Assembly: GCA_002070605.1 (NCBI GenBank) | Contig: MWDO01000008.1 | Span: 1 to 64,000, forward strand | Reading direction: 5' to 3' | Origin: Spirochaetes bacterium ADurb.Bin133 | GTDB lineage: Bacteria; Spirochaetota; GWE2-31-10; MWDO01 | Length of the DNA: 64,000 nt | Shown: positions 35,104 through 47,929 of the stretch, piece after piece | Numbering within the stretch: position 1 is the stretch's first letter | How the letters are laid out: each line of letters opens with the position of its first letter | Notes under the pieces: model-generated | What the model was told of the DNA's origin: nothing | The model's database searches: none | What the model saw: the letters and a program-made list of their open reading frames with translations, nothing else | Program-made: the position numbers and the translations under genes

Positions 35104-36321
35104 ATGAGAAAATTTATAAAAAAAATCATATTAAACATCTCTAGTAATATATTTAATTTTTTAGACAAGAAAGTATTGAAACGATATTATAAAACTATAA
35201 ATTTAATTAATTATTATACAAATACCGGCGCTTTAAACTCTTTCAATTTTGATTATAATAATATAATGGTTCGCGCTCTTAACTATGTTCAGTCGATGAA
35301 AATCGGAAAAAAAATTGGCGAATATAAATTTGCCGGCTCTTGTAAAAACCCTAACATATATTCTTCAGCTTATGCTTGTATGATATATTCTTTATACAAT
35401 AAATTAAATAATTTTTCAGAAAAAGAAAAAAACGAATGGAGAAATTATTTTGATTCTTTTCAATCGGAAAGCGACGGATATTTCTATGATAACTCTTTAT
35501 TAAATGATAATTATAACAAATTAGATTGGTGGGGAAAAAGACATTTGGTTCTTCATTTAATAACATGCTATAATAACTTAGGTTTTGTTCCAAAATATAA
35601 ATTCTTTTTTTTAGAAGAATATTATGACTTAAATAAATTTGAAGAACGATTAGACTCTATGTTTATGCAATATGAAAAAAAACTCTCATTAGATATTGAT
35701 AATTTTATCATGAACATAGGCGCATTACTTCAATATTCTCGCGATACGTGGAAAGATCATAAAGCTGAAGAGTCGGTTAAATGGCTATTAGAGTATCTTG
35801 AAAATAAAATAAATAAAAATACAGGATTATGGACAAATTGCGATATTTCTACCTTATCCAATTTATCAAGAACAGTACAATTTGCATATCATTTATATCC
35901 TCTGTTTTTATATGATAATTATCAAATTAATCTAAAAGAAAAAATTATTGATAATGTATTAAAAACTCAAAATATATTCGGAGGATACGGGGTTTCTTTA
36001 AATTCCAGCGCTTGCGAAGATATAGACTCAATTTATTTATTAATCAAATTATCAGAAAAAAATAATTATAAAAAAGAGTCAATTCGTAATTCTTTACAAA
36101 AAGCTCTTCCTTGGATTTTAGCAAATATGAATGAAGACGGGGGCTTTGTTTTTAAAAGAGATGAACCGCTTATTTATGGGCATAAAGAAATGAGCAGTAT
36201 TGAAAATGAAAGCAATATGTTTGCAACATGGTTTAGAACATTATCTTTAGCTTATTTAATAAAATTTTTAAATATCAAAAATGATTACAAAATTAATCGT
36301 TGTCCGGGAATGGAGTTTTAA
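35104..36321 (+). CDS. Protein of unknown function with helical toroid-like repeats
   Basis: A 405-residue protein, AT-rich. The helical repeat pattern (ALNYVQSMKIG, WLLEYLENKINKNTGLW, VLKTQNIFGGYGVSL, ALPWILANMNEDGGFVF) resembles the (alpha/alpha) barrel of terpenoid cyclase/prenyltransferase or glycoside-hydrolase toroids. CEDIDSIYLL is a possible acidic motif. No transmembrane segment. It starts one base after the Wzt-like gene and ends overlapping the next by one base (TAATG), so it belongs to the polysaccharide transcript. Enzymatic role not assigned. Confidence 0.6.
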   Translation: MRKFIKKIILNISSNIFNFLDKKVLKRYYKTINLINYYTNTGALNSFNFDYNNIMVRALNYVQSMKIGKKIGEYKFAGSCKNPNIYSSAYACMIYSLYNKLNNFSEKEKNEWRNYFDSFQSESDGYFYDNSLLNDNYNKLDWWGKRHLVLHLITCYNNLGFVPKYKFFFLEEYYDLNKFEERLDSMFMQYEKKLSLDIDNFIMNIGALLQYSRDTWKDHKAEESVKWLLEYLENKINKNTGLWTNCDISTLSNLSRTVQFAYHLYPLFLYDNYQINLKEKIIDNVLKTQNIFGGYGVSLNSSACEDIDSIYLLIKLSEKNNYKKESIRNSLQKALPWILANMNEDGGFVFKRDEPLIYGHKEMSSIENESNMFATWFRTLSLAYLIKFLNIKNDYKINRCPGMEF

Positions 36322-36749
36322 TGAAAAACATTCTTTTAGAACACATACCTTGCGATTTATGCGGAAGTAATAACTATAAAATTCGTTATCGAAAACCCGA
36401 TACCTCGCTATGGCTAAATCAATTTGAATATCCCGTGGTAGAGCGTATAAATTGCGGGCTTGTTTTTGTTAATCCAAGACCTACGGAAAAATCAATGGCT
36501 GATTTTTATACAAAAAATTATCATGAAAATAGAGACGGTCGCGAAACAGGAACTTTTTATTATAAATTTTTGTTTAAATCAGGGGGAAATTGGCAAAAAA
36601 TATATTTTAAAAAATTAAATATCATCCAAAAAATAGCGGGAAGAATTGGTTATTATTTTGATAAAATTATTTTTAATAGTCATTGGGAAGCCAAAAATAA
36701 GAAATCAGGCATAATGATTGTTGAATTTCAAAAAAAGGAATATATTTGA
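36321..36749 (+). pseudogene. Methyltransferase remnant lacking its SAM-binding core
   Basis: A 142-residue frame. The N-terminus has the zinc-binding CDLCGS...CGLVFVNPRPTEKS element found at the start of many sugar/SAM methyltransferases. The C-terminal piece, GRIGYYFDKIIF...GIMIVEFQKK, looks like the end of such proteins. The central Rossmann domain with its glycine motif is missing: about 40 residues stand where about 180 would be expected. The reading frame is intact, so a functional small protein cannot be excluded, but an in-frame internal deletion is the simplest view. The ATG overlaps the upstream stop. Confidence 0.55.
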
Positions 36750-37375
36750 ATACAATAAAAAGCGCCTTTAATAAAATTAATGATTATATAATTAATTTGC
36801 TTTTACGACGAAATAAGTTTAGAGATATTAATAAAATTACTACTCATCTTACAATTCAAGAAAAATATTTATTATATAAATTATCTTCTAAAACGACCGG
36901 TATATTTGTCGAAATCGGTTCTTATATTGGCGCGTCGTCATGTTTTATTTCTGAGGGAATTTTAACATCAAAAAAACAAAGCAAACTATATTGTATTGAC
37001 ACATGGGAAAATCAAGCAATGACCGAGGGATTAAAAGAAACATATAATCAATTTATAAGTAATACTAAACAGTATAAAAATATAATTATACCGATAAAAG
37101 ATTTCAGCTATAATGCGATTAAATATTTTATTGAAAATAATATAAAAATTGATTTCCTATTTATAGACGGCGACCACAGTTACGAGGGGGTTAAAAAAGA
37201 TTGGGATTTATATTCCCCCCTGTTAAAACCCAACAGCATAGTTTTATTTCATGATATAGGCTGGGCTAAAGGGGTAGAAAGAGTTATTAATGAAGAAGTA
37301 AAAAGAAATTTAAAAAAACATGGTTCGTTGCCCAATCTTTTTTGGGGTTGGATAAAAAAAGTCAAAATAAATTAA
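36746..37375 (+). CDS. Class I SAM-dependent methyltransferase (Methyltransf_24 type)
   Basis: A 209-residue methyltransferase. The binding loop is FVEIGSYIGASS. The aspartate motif CIDTWEN and DFLFIDGDHSYEGVKKDW are typical of the family, which often methylates sugars in surface polysaccharide loci. A start at TTG 36746 overlaps the preceding stop (TTGA), with AAAAGGAA upstream; no better start exists. Part of the AT-rich polysaccharide cluster. Confidence 0.82.
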   Translation: MNTIKSAFNKINDYIINLLLRRNKFRDINKITTHLTIQEKYLLYKLSSKTTGIFVEIGSYIGASSCFISEGILTSKKQSKLYCIDTWENQAMTEGLKETYNQFISNTKQYKNIIIPIKDFSYNAIKYFIENNIKIDFLFIDGDHSYEGVKKDWDLYSPLLKPNSIVLFHDIGWAKGVERVINEEVKRNLKKHGSLPNLFWGWIKKVKIN

Positions 37376-37388
37376 AAAAGGAATTAAT

Positions 37389-38309
37389 ATGATAAATAAG
37401 ATCAAATTATTATTAAAACAAAAGTTAAAAAATTTTATCAGAGCAACGCTCTTAGAAGAAATAGATGGTTTGACGCAAATTCAATCTCAAATGAAAGAAT
37501 TTAATAATGCCGACGAGGATATGTTATATTCAAAAGTTATAAAATCAACTTCAATAGAAAATATAATTGATAGATTTAAGAAATTAAATATCCCGGTTAT
37601 TTATGAAAAAATTGATATTATTGATTTTAACAATTGGAGAAAAAAATATAAAGAAATAGATAAATATTATAGATATTTAAGCGACGTTTATATTGAAAAA
37701 GTATTAGAACATTATTTAACAATGAAATTTTTAGACATAAAAAAGAAGGACACATTGATAGATATTGCCGCTCTCGGCAGTCCTTATGCAAAAACATTAA
37801 AAAAACGCTTAGGAAACAGGTGTTTTTCTCAGGATTTAGTTTATGAAAAAGGAATAAAAAAAGATAAAATAGGAGGAGATGCCGGTTTTATGCCAATATC
37901 CGACTGTTTCGCCGATGTATTGACTCTTCATTGCGCTTACGAATGTTTTCAGAGCGATTCAGATATTAATTTTATAAAAGAAACTCAAAGAGTATTAAGC
38001 AATAAAGGCAGATTGGGAATAGTTCCGCTTTATGTAGACGACGTTTATTTTGTAATGACTGGACCAAAATATGATAAAAGAAAAGTTAAAGCGGAAGATG
38101 GCGCTAGATGGATATGGAGGGATGATAAATGTCAATCGGAACCATTCAGCAGACACTATAATCCCGAATCTTTTAAAGAAAGAATTATTAATAATATTTC
38201 AAATATGAAATATAAAATTATTCATTTCACAAATATCAAAGAGCTGGAAAAATATTATAATAATCAAAGAATATACTGTAATTTTATGTTTGTTTGTGAA
38301 AAACAATAA
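37389..38309 (+). CDS. Class I SAM-dependent methyltransferase-like protein
   Basis: A 306-residue protein. A helical N-terminal region precedes a Rossmann-type domain with IDIAALGSPYAKTL in place of the usual glycine-rich loop. ADVLTLHCAYECFQSDSD resembles the post-II region, and RVLSNKGRLGIVPLY the motif III strand. The degenerate glycine motif leaves activity uncertain. A GGAATTA sequence is the only ribosome site visible. It lies in the same polysaccharide transcript. Confidence 0.7.
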   Translation: MINKIKLLLKQKLKNFIRATLLEEIDGLTQIQSQMKEFNNADEDMLYSKVIKSTSIENIIDRFKKLNIPVIYEKIDIIDFNNWRKKYKEIDKYYRYLSDVYIEKVLEHYLTMKFLDIKKKDTLIDIAALGSPYAKTLKKRLGNRCFSQDLVYEKGIKKDKIGGDAGFMPISDCFADVLTLHCAYECFQSDSDINFIKETQRVLSNKGRLGIVPLYVDDVYFVMTGPKYDKRKVKAEDGARWIWRDDKCQSEPFSRHYNPESFKERIINNISNMKYKIIHFTNIKELEKYYNNQRIYCNFMFVCEKQ

Positions 38310-38321
38310 AGGATTTAATTA

Positions 38322-39287
38322 TTGCAAATATCAGTCATAATACCTACAAGAAATAGAGCATCTTTACTAAGTAGAACGTTAAATTCAATTGTTGGGCAAA
38401 CTTTAAAGCAAACTGAATTTGAAACGCTAGTAATCGATAATGGCTCAAAAGACGATACAAAAAAAACAGTCGATTCGTTTATAAATAAGATTGCTAATTT
38501 AAAATATTTTTACGAAGAAACGCCGGGACTTCACGTCGGAAGGCATCGAGGATTAAAAGAAGCTCAATCCGATATTTTGGTATATGCCGACGACGATATT
38601 GAAGCGTTTCCAACATGGCTTGAGGCGCTCAAAGAAAGTTTCAAAGACGATAAGGTAGTTTTAGTAGGCGGTAAAATTTTACCAAAATGGGAAGGCGAGG
38701 TTCCAGATTGGATAACTAAAATGTGGGAGAAAAAAAACAACTTAGGACAATGTCTTGGTTATTTAAGCATACTTGATTTCGGCGATAATAATATTGAAAT
38801 CCCCGCCGGTTTTGTCTTTGGATGCAATTTTTCAATTAGAAAAAACATATTAATTGAAGCGGGCGGATTTCATCCCGACGGAATGCCGCAAGAACTAATT
38901 AAATTTAGAGGCGACGGGGAATCATATGTGTCAAAATTCATTGAGGAAAAAAAACTCAAAACAATTTATAATCCAGACGCTTCAGTATATCACATTATTA
39001 CAAAAGAAAGATTAACAATTGAATATTTTTGTAAAAGAGCTTATAATCAAGGAATATCAGATTCTTATACGTATTTAAGAAATAATAAATCTAGTTTAAA
39101 AACTAAGAGGGAAAATACTAAAATTATTTTAAAAAATATTATTAAAAGATTATATCTGTTTATTAAAAAAGATAAAGAATCATTAAAAATATTTAAAAAT
39201 TACTTAAATGGATTTGAATTTCATAAACGCGAATTTAAGCGGGACATAAATTTAAAAGAGTGGGTCTATAAAAAAAATTATTTATAA
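38322..39287 (+). CDS. Glycosyltransferase family 2
   Basis: A 321-residue inverting glycosyltransferase with GT-A fold. IIPTRNRASLLSRTL opens the nucleotide-sugar site, DNGSKDDTKKTV contributes, and YADDDIEAF is the metal-binding DxD. A C-terminal helical region probably binds the acceptor. TTG 38322 with AAAGGA upstream is the start. The CDS contains TCATATGTGTCAAAA (about 38931-38945), the same 15-mer seen in intergenic repeats. Confidence 0.88.
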   Translation: MQISVIIPTRNRASLLSRTLNSIVGQTLKQTEFETLVIDNGSKDDTKKTVDSFINKIANLKYFYEETPGLHVGRHRGLKEAQSDILVYADDDIEAFPTWLEALKESFKDDKVVLVGGKILPKWEGEVPDWITKMWEKKNNLGQCLGYLSILDFGDNNIEIPAGFVFGCNFSIRKNILIEAGGFHPDGMPQELIKFRGDGESYVSKFIEEKKLKTIYNPDASVYHIITKERLTIEYFCKRAYNQGISDSYTYLRNNKSSLKTKRENTKIILKNIIKRLYLFIKKDKESLKIFKNYLNGFEFHKREFKRDINLKEWVYKKNYL

Positions 39288-39296
39288 GGCGATTTA

Positions 39297-40517
39297 ATGA
39301 ATGAAAAATTTATTTTGATTATTCAATACGATTTTCCCATTTCGTCTATTACTACGGATTTAATAAAATCTCTTAATGAGAACGGTTATAAAGTTTTTCT
39401 GGTTCTTTGTTATTGCAAAGAGGGATTATTTATCGAGGTTAAATCTATAAATACTAAAGATAATGAACTTTTGATAATTAATTCATTTTTCCTGTTTAAG
39501 AGGATACTTAATAAATTATACTCAATCTTTATATCTAAAAATATCAGGTTATCAAAATTTATTTTCAAACTATTTAGAATCGATAAAAATATTATCAATT
39601 ATTTTATTGTTAAAAAAATTTTAGATTACCTAAAAAAGAAAGGCGCTAAAATATCCTCTGTAATAGGCATTGAAAAAAAAGGAGTTATATACGGCGGTAT
39701 AATTTCGCAAATATTAAAAAAACCATTATTATATTACAGTTTAGAATTATACACAGACGAACATCCAAATAATAGAAACAATCTAATAGCTCAAAAAATA
39801 TTAGAACTTGAAAAGAAATATCATAAAATTAGTATTGCGACAATTATTCAAGATGAAGATAGAGCGGATTTTCTATATAATAATAATCTAATTGACGACA
39901 AAAATGTTAAAATTATTATTCCCGTATACAATAAGGGAAAGATAATTGAAAAGAGAACTAATTATTTTTATGACAAATTTAATATCAATAAAGATAAAAA
40001 AATTATCTTATACTTTGGAGTAATTAACAAATATCGAAATATTAATGAAATAATTAATAACGCAAATAGAGAAGATTATATTTTATTATTACACGGTTTA
40101 ATATCAAACGATTATTATAATTCTATAAATAAAGAAAAAAACATTATCATTTCTAAAGATATGGTTGAGGAAAGTAAAATTTTTGATTTGATTTCCTCCT
40201 GCCATATTGGCTTAGCGATTTACAGACAGGATATTGTTAACGATAGATTAACAGTTTTTTCTTCAACCAAAATTGCCCAATATTTAAAATGCGGAATACC
40301 TATAATCGGCTGGAATAATAGCAACTATCAAAAATTATTTAACGAATTTAAATGCGGAGAATTAATAAACTCTTTTGAATCTTTAGACAACGCGATATCA
40401 ACTATTTTAAAAAACTACGACGAATACAAATCCAACGCTTTTGCGGCATATAACAAGTATTATAACATCGATTTTACCATTAAAAATTTGACTTCATATT
40501 TAGAGAAAAATTTATAA
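39297..40517 (+). CDS. Glycosyltransferase of the GT-B fold
   Basis: A 406-residue protein resembling GT4-type retaining transferases. The N-terminal half has Rossmann strands. The C-terminal half has KKIILYFGVINKYRNINEII as the strand of the second domain, ILLLHG, and a late segment, FSSTKIAQYLKCGIPIIGWNN, with the nucleotide-sugar contact. It is the last gene of the plus-strand polysaccharide cluster and converges on a methyltransferase gene with three bases between stops. Donor and acceptor unknown. Confidence 0.75.
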   Translation: MNEKFILIIQYDFPISSITTDLIKSLNENGYKVFLVLCYCKEGLFIEVKSINTKDNELLIINSFFLFKRILNKLYSIFISKNIRLSKFIFKLFRIDKNIINYFIVKKILDYLKKKGAKISSVIGIEKKGVIYGGIISQILKKPLLYYSLELYTDEHPNNRNNLIAQKILELEKKYHKISIATIIQDEDRADFLYNNNLIDDKNVKIIIPVYNKGKIIEKRTNYFYDKFNINKDKKIILYFGVINKYRNINEIINNANREDYILLLHGLISNDYYNSINKEKNIIISKDMVEESKIFDLISSCHIGLAIYRQDIVNDRLTVFSSTKIAQYLKCGIPIIGWNNSNYQKLFNEFKCGELINSFESLDNAISTILKNYDEYKSNAFAAYNKYYNIDFTIKNLTSYLEKNL

Positions 40518-45140: not shown

Positions 45141-45533
45141 TTAATCTTTTCCTAATAAAATTTTACGTAATACTTTAGAATCCGATATTTGCCCCTGAAT
45201 TTCGTCGAGAGCCTGAGTTCTTACCGCTAAACTTGTAAGAACTTTCCATGCAATTTCGGGTCTTCTGGATATCAAATCAAGAAAACCGCTCCTGTCGAGC
45301 TGATTTACAATCGCCTCGTCGCTCGCCACCATTATCGTCGCGGCTCTTTCGACGCCGATAATCATAGAAATTTCGCCAAAAACGTCTCCCTCGCGTAAAA
45401 ACCCGCAATCTATTATAACGCCGTTGACCGCTCTCTGTACCGCCAATTTACCTTTTTCAAGCACATAAAGATATTTATCCTTAGTATCTCCTTGTCTTAT
45501 AACTAATTCGCCTTTATACAAAGTTTTTTTCAT
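45141..45533 (-). CDS. Cyclic-nucleotide-binding (Crp-type) single-domain protein
   Basis: A 130-residue protein consisting of one cNMP-binding beta-roll. The phosphate cassette FGEISMIIGVERAAT is intact, with Glu and Arg contacts, preceded by GDVFG. There is no helix-turn-helix, so it is not a stand-alone transcription factor. It lies 44 bases after pyrI. It may signal in a c-di-GMP or cAMP context, but no ligand is assigned. Confidence 0.82.
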   Translation of the reverse strand: MKKTLYKGELVIRQGDTKDKYLYVLEKGKLAVQRAVNGVIIDCGFLREGDVFGEISMIIGVERAATIMVASDEAIVNQLDRSGFLDLISRRPEIAWKVLTSLAVRTQALDEIQGQISDSKVLRKILLGKD

Positions 45534-45577: not shown

Positions 45578-46042
45578 TTATTTGATCAAATCCGGCGTTA
45601 CTACCGTTTCTCTTTCGCAATAGTAACAACGAACCGTCGTCTTATTCATATCGGCTCTTTCCACTATAAACTTTGTATCGCAATCTCGATAATTATTTGT
45701 AACGCATATCGGATTTGGACATCTCAATATCGAATTTATTACTTCGGGCATATCGATTTTTCTTTTTTCAACCACCGCCCCGTCTTTTATAATGTTTATC
45801 GAAGCGTTAGGAGAAAATAGCGCAATAATATCCGTATGACTTTTCTCCAAATAAACGTTCTCAATTTTAATAATATCTTTTTTACCGATTTTTGAGGAAT
45901 CAAAATTCATTCCTATCGATATTATCCCCTGCTCTTTAATACCGAGAATATCGATAATTTTCAAAGCCATCGGCGAGGATATATGATCTATCACCGTGCC
46001 GTTTTGAATTTTAAATACTCTATAAGGTCTCTCTTCGCTCAT
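45578..46042 (-). CDS. pyrI: Aspartate carbamoyltransferase regulatory subunit
   Basis: Allosteric subunit that lets CTP/ATP control PyrB. The 154-residue protein has the N-terminal nucleotide-binding region with VIDHISSPMALKIIDILG. The C-terminal zinc domain has CPNPIC and CYYC, the expected four cysteines. It overlaps pyrB by four bases, as in classic pyrBI operons. With it the pathway is feedback-regulated at the enzyme level as well as in the leader. Confidence 0.93.
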   Translation of the reverse strand: MSEERPYRVFKIQNGTVIDHISSPMALKIIDILGIKEQGIISIGMNFDSSKIGKKDIIKIENVYLEKSHTDIIALFSPNASINIIKDGAVVEKRKIDMPEVINSILRCPNPICVTNNYRDCDTKFIVERADMNKTTVRCYYCERETVVTPDLIK

Positions 46043-46956
46043 TGTATCGCCCCCGTAACTAGTCCTAATATCGCTTGCCGAACGGGTATTCCGTTATGCG
46101 CCTGCTCAAAATATATGGCGTTTTCAAGTTTATCTATAGACGGATCTATCTCGTCTAATCTCGGTAAAGGATGCATTATTTTTACTTTGGGATTTAAAAC
46201 GCCCATCGTTTCTTCGGTTATCTTATAAGACCCCGCCACTTTTTCGTATTCCTGAAGATCGCCAAATCTCTCTTTTTGTATTCTCGTAACGTATAAAACG
46301 TCGAGATCCTGTCCAACCTCTTCGATAGAAGAGGTCTCGACAAATTTTATTCCGGAGCCCTCCAAATAATTTTTAAAATCAATTGGTATTCTGAGAAGTT
46401 TTGGAGAAATCAAAGTTATTTTAACGTTGTAATAGGATAGCGCCATTGATAACGAATGAGCGGTCCTGCCGTATTTGAGATCCCCCATCAACCCTATATT
46501 CAACCCGTCTATTTTACCAAACTGCTCCTTGATAGTATAAAGGTCAAGCAGAGTCTGAGTAGGATGTTGATTGGCTCCGTCCCCCGCGTTGATAACCGGT
46601 TTTGACGAGACTTCCGACGCCGCTCTCGCCGCCCCCTCGTACGGATGACGAATAACGATCGCGTCGCAATACCCGCATACGGTTTTAATAGAATCCTTGA
46701 GCGTCTCCCCTTTTTGTATCGAAGAACTCGACGGATCGGCTATCCCAAAATATTTACCCCCTAACAAAGATATAGCCGAATCAAATGAGAGCCGAGTCCT
46801 CGTAGATGGTTCAAAAAACAGACTGGCGAGAGTTTTCCCTCGAAGAGCGTCGGGATATTTATTGTTTTTTACTTCGTAAGTTTTCTTTAATATATATTCA
46901 ATCTCATCCTTTTTTAAATCTCTAAAAGAAATTATGCTTTTACCCTTAAAATTCAT
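46039..46956 (-). CDS. pyrB: Aspartate carbamoyltransferase catalytic subunit
   Basis: It joins carbamoyl phosphate and aspartate, the committed step of pyrimidine synthesis. The 305-residue protein shows the carbamoyl-phosphate motif FFEPSTRTRLSF, the HPTQTLLDLY motif and the MHPLPRLDEI motif. It has the standard length. Upstream are a promoter, a short leader ORF and a terminator hairpin that could attenuate it. First gene of pyrBI. Confidence 0.95.
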   Translation of the reverse strand: MNFKGKSIISFRDLKKDEIEYILKKTYEVKNNKYPDALRGKTLASLFFEPSTRTRLSFDSAISLLGGKYFGIADPSSSSIQKGETLKDSIKTVCGYCDAIVIRHPYEGAARAASEVSSKPVINAGDGANQHPTQTLLDLYTIKEQFGKIDGLNIGLMGDLKYGRTAHSLSMALSYYNVKITLISPKLLRIPIDFKNYLEGSGIKFVETSSIEEVGQDLDVLYVTRIQKERFGDLQEYEKVAGSYKITEETMGVLNPKVKIMHPLPRLDEIDPSIDKLENAIYFEQAHNGIPVRQAILGLVTGAIQ

Positions 46957-46985: not shown

Positions 46986-47021
46986 CAAAAAAAAATGTCT
47001 TTCCCTATAAGGAAAGACATT
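46986..47021 (-). terminator. Putative attenuator in the pyrBI leader
   Basis: On the coding strand AATGTCTTTCC pairs with GGAAAGACATT around a five-base loop and is followed by a run of nine T. It lies 30 bases upstream of the pyrB start, inside the transcribed leader. A leader ORF ends within this hairpin. Confidence 0.75.
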
Positions 47022-47070
47022 CCGCCCTGTCGATATAAAAATGTATCTCTCTAAAAATTACTAACTTCAT
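47005..47070 (-). CDS. Candidate pyrBI leader peptide
   Basis: A 21-codon ORF, encoding MKLVIFREIHFYIDRAECLS plus one Leu, has its stop inside the attenuator loop. Its RNA has two U-rich tracts (AUUUUU and CAUUUUUAU) ahead of the hairpin. The ATG lies about three bases after the predicted transcription start, with no ribosome site. Coupled translation with UTP-sensitive pausing, as in Escherichia coli pyrBI, is an inference from layout. Confidence 0.5.
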   Translation of the reverse strand: MKLVIFREIHFYIDRAECLSL

Positions 47071-47079
47071 ATCAAACAT

Positions 47080-47106
47080 AGTATAACATTTTTCCTCACC
47101 GGTCAA
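47080..47106 (-). promoter_or_regulatory. pyrBI promoter
   Basis: On the minus strand TTGACC (47106-47101) and TATACT (47085-47080) are separated by 15 bases, shorter than the preferred 17. The transcript would start near 47073. Confidence 0.45.
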
Positions 47107-47123
47107 GAACTATTTATTTGTAT

Positions 47124-47224
47124 CCTGTCAGTTTTTTGGGGAATAAAAAATATTTGTCCCATATGTGTCAATTTTTTTGAGACAGGCTCGCGTTATCCAT
47201 TTCCTTACCCCAAAAAACTGACGG
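47124..47224. repeat. Minimal complete repeat element of about 100 bases
   Basis: The perfect inverted termini GTCAGTTTTTTGGGG and CCCCAAAAAACTGAC enclose a single CCCATATGTGTCAA motif and a short GAGACAGGCTC stretch. No gene is inside. It is the smallest full unit in the window and shows that the termini define the element. Confidence 0.88.
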
Positions 47225-47425
47225 ATTACATTTATTTATAAAATTTTATTGATGTCATTCAAAAAATGAAAGTTTAATAAGATGTTATAAAATATGTTAA
47301 GTATGAAGCATCTTATTTTAATATCTAATATTTTCCTTATTATGCGCTTTGCGCGTCCGCTGAAAATTACGGCGCTTTCAAACCTTTCCTTTAAAATAAA
47401 AAGGACAATCGATAAATAACGGTTT

Positions 47426-47929
47426 CTATGAATAATAGAGTAAATTCTGGACAATTTGAGCGTAAAGAACTCTCTTTTTTTCCGATGTTCTCATCATATG
47501 TGTCAAAACGCCCCTTAAATCATGTATAATCTTTTGAATATTTATTTTTCCCTCAATTAATTCTAAATATTTCTCCGCTCCGTATTTAACTATACCTTCA
47601 TAGAAAAAATTGATTATATCTCTTAAAATAACGGATATTCCGTATTCATTAAACATATAATGCCATTTTTTCAACATTTTATACTTATTATCATTTAATC
47701 TAACATATTTATGTATTCTTGACGTATCTTCAGTATCTATATATTCGTATTCCGACTTATGATCGCCTATTACTTTTTTTAAATTTTGAATATTTTTTGA
47801 CATTTTTTCCATAATAAAATCGAATAGCTCGCGATTACTACCAATATTAAGCGTCTTTCTTAAATACTTAATATGCGAATCAATTCTTTTTGACGCAACA
47901 AAATGAAAAAGACGATTTGTTTTAACCAT
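47426..47929 (-). CDS. Hypothetical protein, possibly DNA-binding
   Basis: A 167-residue basic protein. Two segments, FHFVASKRIDSHIKYLRKTL and KYVRLNDNKYKMLKKWHYMF, each form a strand followed by helices like ribbon-helix-helix units, but no family is certain. The ATG follows AAGGAG. Its last 30 or so residues are encoded in sequence with the TCATATGTGTCAAAA repeat motif, so the native end may have been replaced. The 500 bases around it are AT-rich. Confidence 0.5.
   Translation of the reverse strand: MVKTNRLFHFVASKRIDSHIKYLRKTLNIGSNRELFDFIMEKMSKNIQNLKKVIGDHKSEYEYIDTEDTSRIHKYVRLNDNKYKMLKKWHYMFNEYGISVILRDIINFFYEGIVKYGAEKYLELIEGKINIQKIIHDLRGVLTHMMRTSEKKRVLYAQIVQNLLYYS

Follow-up and report, generated by a model that had tools for sequence, protein, structure and literature searches.

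A pyrBI leader with the layout of the Escherichia coli attenuator and an apparently almost leaderless reading frame in a spirochaete

The pyrBI attenuator is a textbook case of enterobacterial transcription-translation coupling, and the other common control of pyr operons is attenuation of the PyrR type. In Escherichia coli, limiting UTP causes RNA polymerase to pause in the leader gene pyrL, and the ribosome then blocks the terminator (PMC10135430, PMC5021804). The pyrL gene comprises 44 codons, has a Shine-Dalgarno sequence and ends 3 nt before pyrB, and the transcript starts with AATTTG, a sequence that permits reiterative transcription. Attenuators that dispense with a 5' untranslated region have been described elsewhere: in the trpL leader of Sinorhizobium meliloti (rnTrpL), the 5' end of the attenuator RNA is the leader ATG (PMC7298713). 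This attenuator controls trp genes in response to tryptophan and does not sense nucleotides.

The locus considered here lies in a stretch of 64,000 nucleotides from Spirochaetes bacterium ADurb.Bin133 (contig MWDO01000008.1, positions 1 to 64,000), which we call the window. FlaA (PF04620), a spirochaete flagellar protein, was found in 31 of 31 genomes ranging from the window's genus to its phylum and in none of 14 control genomes. The phylum is therefore Spirochaetota, and the initial annotation was right to suspect a lineage unrelated to that of E. coli. All features of the locus are on the minus strand. The NCBIfam models identify pyrB, encoding the catalytic subunit of aspartate carbamoyltransferase (46039-46956; TIGR00670, 379.9 bits, cut-off 237), and pyrI, encoding the regulatory subunit (45578-46042; TIGR00240, 159.7 bits, cut-off 149), with both scores above their cut-offs. 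Upstream of pyrB there is a sigma-70-like promoter sequence (47078-47106), consisting of a -35 element TTGACC (47101-47106) and a -10 element (47078-47085) that can be read either as TATACT (47085-47080), which gives a spacer of 15 nt, or as TACTAT (47083-47078), which gives one of 17 nt. With either reading the spacing predicts that transcription starts at about 47070-47073, in agreement with the start near 47073 that had been proposed, and thus 0-3 nt 5' of an ATG at 47070. This ATG opens a reading frame of 21 codons (MKLVIFREIHFYIDRAECLSL, 47005-47070), whose stop codon TAG (47007-47005) spans the loop and the first base of the 3' arm of an intrinsic terminator hairpin (46992-47023; 14 pairs, loop of 4). 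The hairpin is accompanied by a run of nine T (46987-46995, as read from the sequence), it begins only 47 nt after the ATG, and 35 nt separate it from pyrB. Two U5 tracts (47053-47057 and 47037-47041) stand 5' of it.

The layout thus corresponds to that of pyrBI in E. coli and Salmonella, with a promoter, a leader frame that runs into a terminator, T tracts before the hairpin as a candidate pause region, and pyrB followed by pyrI, as the initial annotation had claimed along with the frame of 21 codons ending in the hairpin. It differs from the E. coli leader in being less than half as long and ending in the hairpin loop, in having, by its predicted start, almost no 5' untranslated region, and in the absence of AATTTG as initially transcribed sequence; it belongs to a different phylum and the two leaders share no evident similarity. 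No Shine-Dalgarno sequence precedes the leader ATG in the window genome (G000), in a congener (G001) or in a member of another genus (G003), and in all three the -10 element ends 8-9 nt before the ATG, which fits the description of the frame as almost leaderless.

The anatomy of this leader, namely promoter-like sequence, frame into the hairpin and terminator, is confirmed in the window. The leader has a folding energy of -31.9 kcal/mol compared with -16.6 +/- 2.9 for shuffled sequences (z = -5.2), and none of 200 shuffles was as stable. The window contains 56 reading frames of 120 aa or more, and only the one for pyrB is preceded, at a distance of 10-130 nt, by such a terminator, which cannot be assigned to the end of another gene. 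The leader frame stays open in 32% of shuffles and is by itself unremarkable. The two U-rich tracts that had been noted before the hairpin do exist, but they are statistically not unusual: the T content of the putative pause region is 0.43 vs 0.28 in pyrB windows (P = 0.06) and vs 0.35 in upstream DNA (P = 0.24), so that the U-tracts of the window sequence alone are not significantly enriched. The open frame and the U-richness gain force only through the relatives.

A 110-bp repeat (47120-47229) with the terminal inverted repeats GTCAGTTTTTTGGGG and CCCCAAAAAACTGAC lies upstream of the promoter and is flanked by the direct repeat aaataaat (47112-47119 and 47230-47237). About 15 similar copies occur elsewhere in the genome, none is present at this site in the congener, and the element, judged by its sequence, resembles a MITE that inserted 13 bp away from the -35 element, on its upstream side. 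It was considered as a source of the promoter or attenuator and rejected, as it ends 13 bp before the -35 element and the congener keeps both without it. The terminal sequence CCCCAAAAAACTGACA has six more single matches in the window with at most two mismatches (2459, 6818, 11561, 33739, 43993 and 54452), with 0.01 expected. Upstream of the repeat there is a reading frame of 167 aa (47426-47929) that gave no NCBIfam match, and the minus strand encodes, shortly after pyrI, a 130-aa protein with a cyclic-nucleotide-binding domain (45141-45533), which shows weak CRP-like matches. Further away, the G+C content falls to 0.273 at 36001-40000, compared with 0.33-0.40 in the rest of the window.

The closest comparison is provided by the congener, in which promoter, leader and hairpin are all kept, including both the -35 and the -10 element; the -35 element is kept in G003 as well. 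The congener has TCG where the window has TAG, and because of this replacement its leader frame runs to 35 codons and ends 5 nt before pyrB, close to the 3 nt of E. coli pyrL. Between the ATG and the end of the hairpin tail, the two leaders are identical at 80 of 87 nt (92%; 42/47 nt from the ATG to the hairpin and 38/40 nt in hairpin plus tail), against a baseline of 73% for the third positions of pyrB codons. Upstream of the hairpin, the substitutions alter the peptide, and a 32-nt block that contains both U-tracts is unchanged. Such a pattern would be expected of a leader that matters through its nucleotides, and it looks like selection on these and not on the peptide. Equivalent hairpins are found in G003, where the leader frame of 33 codons runs through the hairpin, and in a member of another family of the same order (G005), where a frame of 22 codons ends in the hairpin loop. 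The layout is patchy even within the order, since no terminator precedes pyrB in those f2 species whose upstream region could be read. As for other pyrimidine genes of the order, five of six carA loci, with approximate start codons, had no upstream terminator, G008 has one between carA and its preceding gene, and for pyrE a model match above the chosen threshold was obtained in G002 only.

Similar leaders recur in another family, f42, in which terminators of the form AACCGCC...GGCGGTT precede pyrB at many loci and are absent from the others. Most of the loci with such a terminator have a short reading frame that ends in, at or beyond the hairpin, the layout being found at about ten loci; at L210 the frame ends 3 nt before pyrB, and at L216 the terminator is present and no leader frame was found. 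Two loci (L206 and L222) were rejected as leaders, their terminators lying close behind an upstream reading frame, as was G012 of family f7, where the terminator follows the upstream gene. With L206 and L222 left out as terminators of upstream frames, the T content of the 30 nt before the hairpin is 0.37-0.60 in 10 of the 11 f42 loci scored, compared with a background of about 0.20, L220 being the exception; the same measure gives 0.37 vs 0.22 for E. coli. This T-richness is the best comparative support for a putative pause region. In 10 of 15 leaders from the window's order and f42, Brachyspira not being counted, a -10-like hexamer ends 5-11 nt before the leader ATG, where shuffles would give 3.3; the number may be biased upwards, since the ATGs were picked by eye among those frames that reach the hairpin. 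We infer that the expected transcription start coincides with the leader ATG in the window's family and in some of the f42 loci, so that these leaders would be leaderless.

The leaders of Brachyspira (family f11, identified through plasmid pBHWA1 of B. hyodysenteriae, of which a segment of 6 kb matches G077 with 97% over 5972 nt) share with the window a leader frame that runs into a terminator. All 24 Brachyspira pyrB leaders that were read have a frame of 31-64 codons, open into or past the hairpin, and for each of them the frame survives in just 2-15% of shuffles. A strict hairpin rule missed the hairpins of G016 and G097, both of which are seen in the alignment. Covariation in related leaders, which the initial annotation had named as a check, was found here: four pairs of the hairpin have changed on both sides, there are 14 double-change cells where shuffling gives 4.0, with none of 500 shuffles reaching that number, and 95% of the cells are paired vs 46-62% when one arm is slid; the set consists of 12 distinct hairpins of one genus, whose kinship inflates the comparison with shuffles and is shared by the slid controls. 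Brachyspira differs from the window in several respects. Its leader frames are led by a Shine-Dalgarno sequence, PyrR is present (found in G016 and G028), and pyrB is followed by pyrC and not by pyrI, with no pyrI match at locus L045. In 23 of 24 leaders, AATTT follows the -10 element after exactly six variable bases, and among the spirochaete leaders this E. coli-like start, which is tied to reiterative transcription, occurs in Brachyspira only. As the start sequence is the same as in E. coli, it suggests that the same second control may operate in Brachyspira; for E. coli transcription units, see PMC6245113. The Brachyspira PyrB protein (359 aa; L045, 1333-2412 and 58-1272, with pyrC next) has a cysteine-rich C-terminus that resembles the PyrI zinc ribbon.

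We think it probable, by analogy, that the window leader is a translation-coupled, UTP-responsive attenuator that works like that of E. coli pyrBI. The relatives add strong support for an attenuator, and the interpretation in the initial annotation is thus borne out in part. Transcription would begin at the leader ATG or a few bases 5' of it. With ample UTP, RNA polymerase would move quickly through the leader, the hairpin would form and transcription would stop before pyrB. When UTP is scarce, the polymerase would presumably be slowed at the U-tracts, which could allow a ribosome that has entered at the almost leaderless 5' end and translates the leader to catch up with it. On reaching the end of the leader in the hairpin loop, where its position on the TAG would place part of each hairpin arm under it, the ribosome would prevent folding by its footprint, and pyrBI would be transcribed. 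A weak point of this proposal is the short leader, which requires the ribosome to load quickly on a 5' end that has just emerged from the polymerase. Also counting against it are the unremarkable U content of the window leader, the missing AATTTG start and the f2 species that do without an attenuator.

An alternative, which we regard as unlikely, though less so than the others considered, is partial termination of a constitutive kind that does no more than hold pyrBI expression low and release a short RNA, with the leader frame being incidental or encoding a small peptide of its own. Regulation is so far predicted from sequence and the survival of the window frame in about a third of shuffles would agree with such a terminator. 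However, every one of 28 leaders (the window and 27 others, from the window's order and Brachyspira) keeps its frame open at least into the hairpin, and the stop positions drift only inside or beyond the hairpin. The T-rich tracts before the f42 hairpins and a peptide sequence that is not conserved between window genome and congener also speak against this alternative.

Since PyrR-type attenuation is common for pyr operons and PyrR occurs in Brachyspira, control of the window terminator by a PyrR-like protein or an unknown aptamer, acting through an antiterminator, was also considered, and we judge it quite improbable. PyrR-dependent attenuators likewise place a terminator before pyrimidine genes, but the leader here contains a translatable frame, and the window's order yields no PyrR above the cut-off: the model NF003549 has no match in G000-G007, and weak matches below the cut-off occur only in G008. 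All Rfam families stay below their cut-offs at the leader, no PyrR-binding RNA appears up to E = 5, and the approximately 50 nt before the hairpin contain no structure common to G000, G001, G003 and G005. A match of the leader to Rfam BTnc201 (26.8 bits vs a cut-off of 105, E 0.11) was treated as chance, because this family is the Bacteroides MasB sRNA, which is not described as a pyr leader, and because no pyrB locus that was scanned, Bacteroidales included, reached any Rfam cut-off.

A leader peptide together with a terminator could in principle also constitute an attenuator of the amino-acid type, in which a stalled ribosome switches between terminator and antiterminator. In the congener, the most favourable fold of the leader until the 3' arm emerges (-7.3 kcal/mol) is indeed a weak pairing between AGAGAGAU and the 5' arm, but in single-sequence folding this alternative loses out to other folds in G000, G003 and G005, the peptides share no run of one amino acid, and the peptide changes freely between the window genome and its congener; we consider such a mechanism very improbable. 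To the notion that the terminator merely insulates pyrBI from upstream transcription, for which the repeat element and the unrelated reading frame upstream might speak, we give hardly any credence, as it places the pyrBI promoter within the short gap after the hairpin, where no promoter-like site was reported, and as both G001 and G003 have kept the promoter upstream of the leader, even though G001 has no repeat element.

A literature search, with weak coverage of subscription journals, returned no description of a pyrB attenuator for Brachyspira or other spirochaetes. Leaderlessness itself is not new, because the leaderless trpL leader of S. meliloti is known, but its combination with a layout of the pyrBI type appears to be. 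No evident sequence similarity links the leaders found in the window's family, in Brachyspira, in f42 and in E. coli, and the layout, patchy as it is, may be convergent, ancestral or transferred. The presence of the layout across Spirochaetota suggests that this kind of control is old or easily evolved. Tentatively, and as a possibility that we would not yet favour, spirochaetes may have a UTP-sensing, translation-coupled attenuator with a leaderless leader, in which the ribosome loads directly on the 5' end and the polymerase hesitates a few dozen bases further on; it would recur in the window's family and f42, and Brachyspira would have kept or re-evolved the AATTT start that allows UTP-dependent reiterative transcription. 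The window layout is a natural setting in which to ask whether kinetic coupling can work on a leaderless mRNA over less than 50 nt, and Brachyspira is a place where both controls of E. coli could be tested. As leads from other phyla, and as weaker hints from single sequences, we note a possible pyrB leader in Propionigenium maris (Fusobacteriota; L136, upstream of 2486), where a 50-codon frame ends in the terminator loop, and candidate leader frames that run through the pyrB terminators of two Bacteroidales (L101, upstream of 2495, and L119, upstream of 2501).
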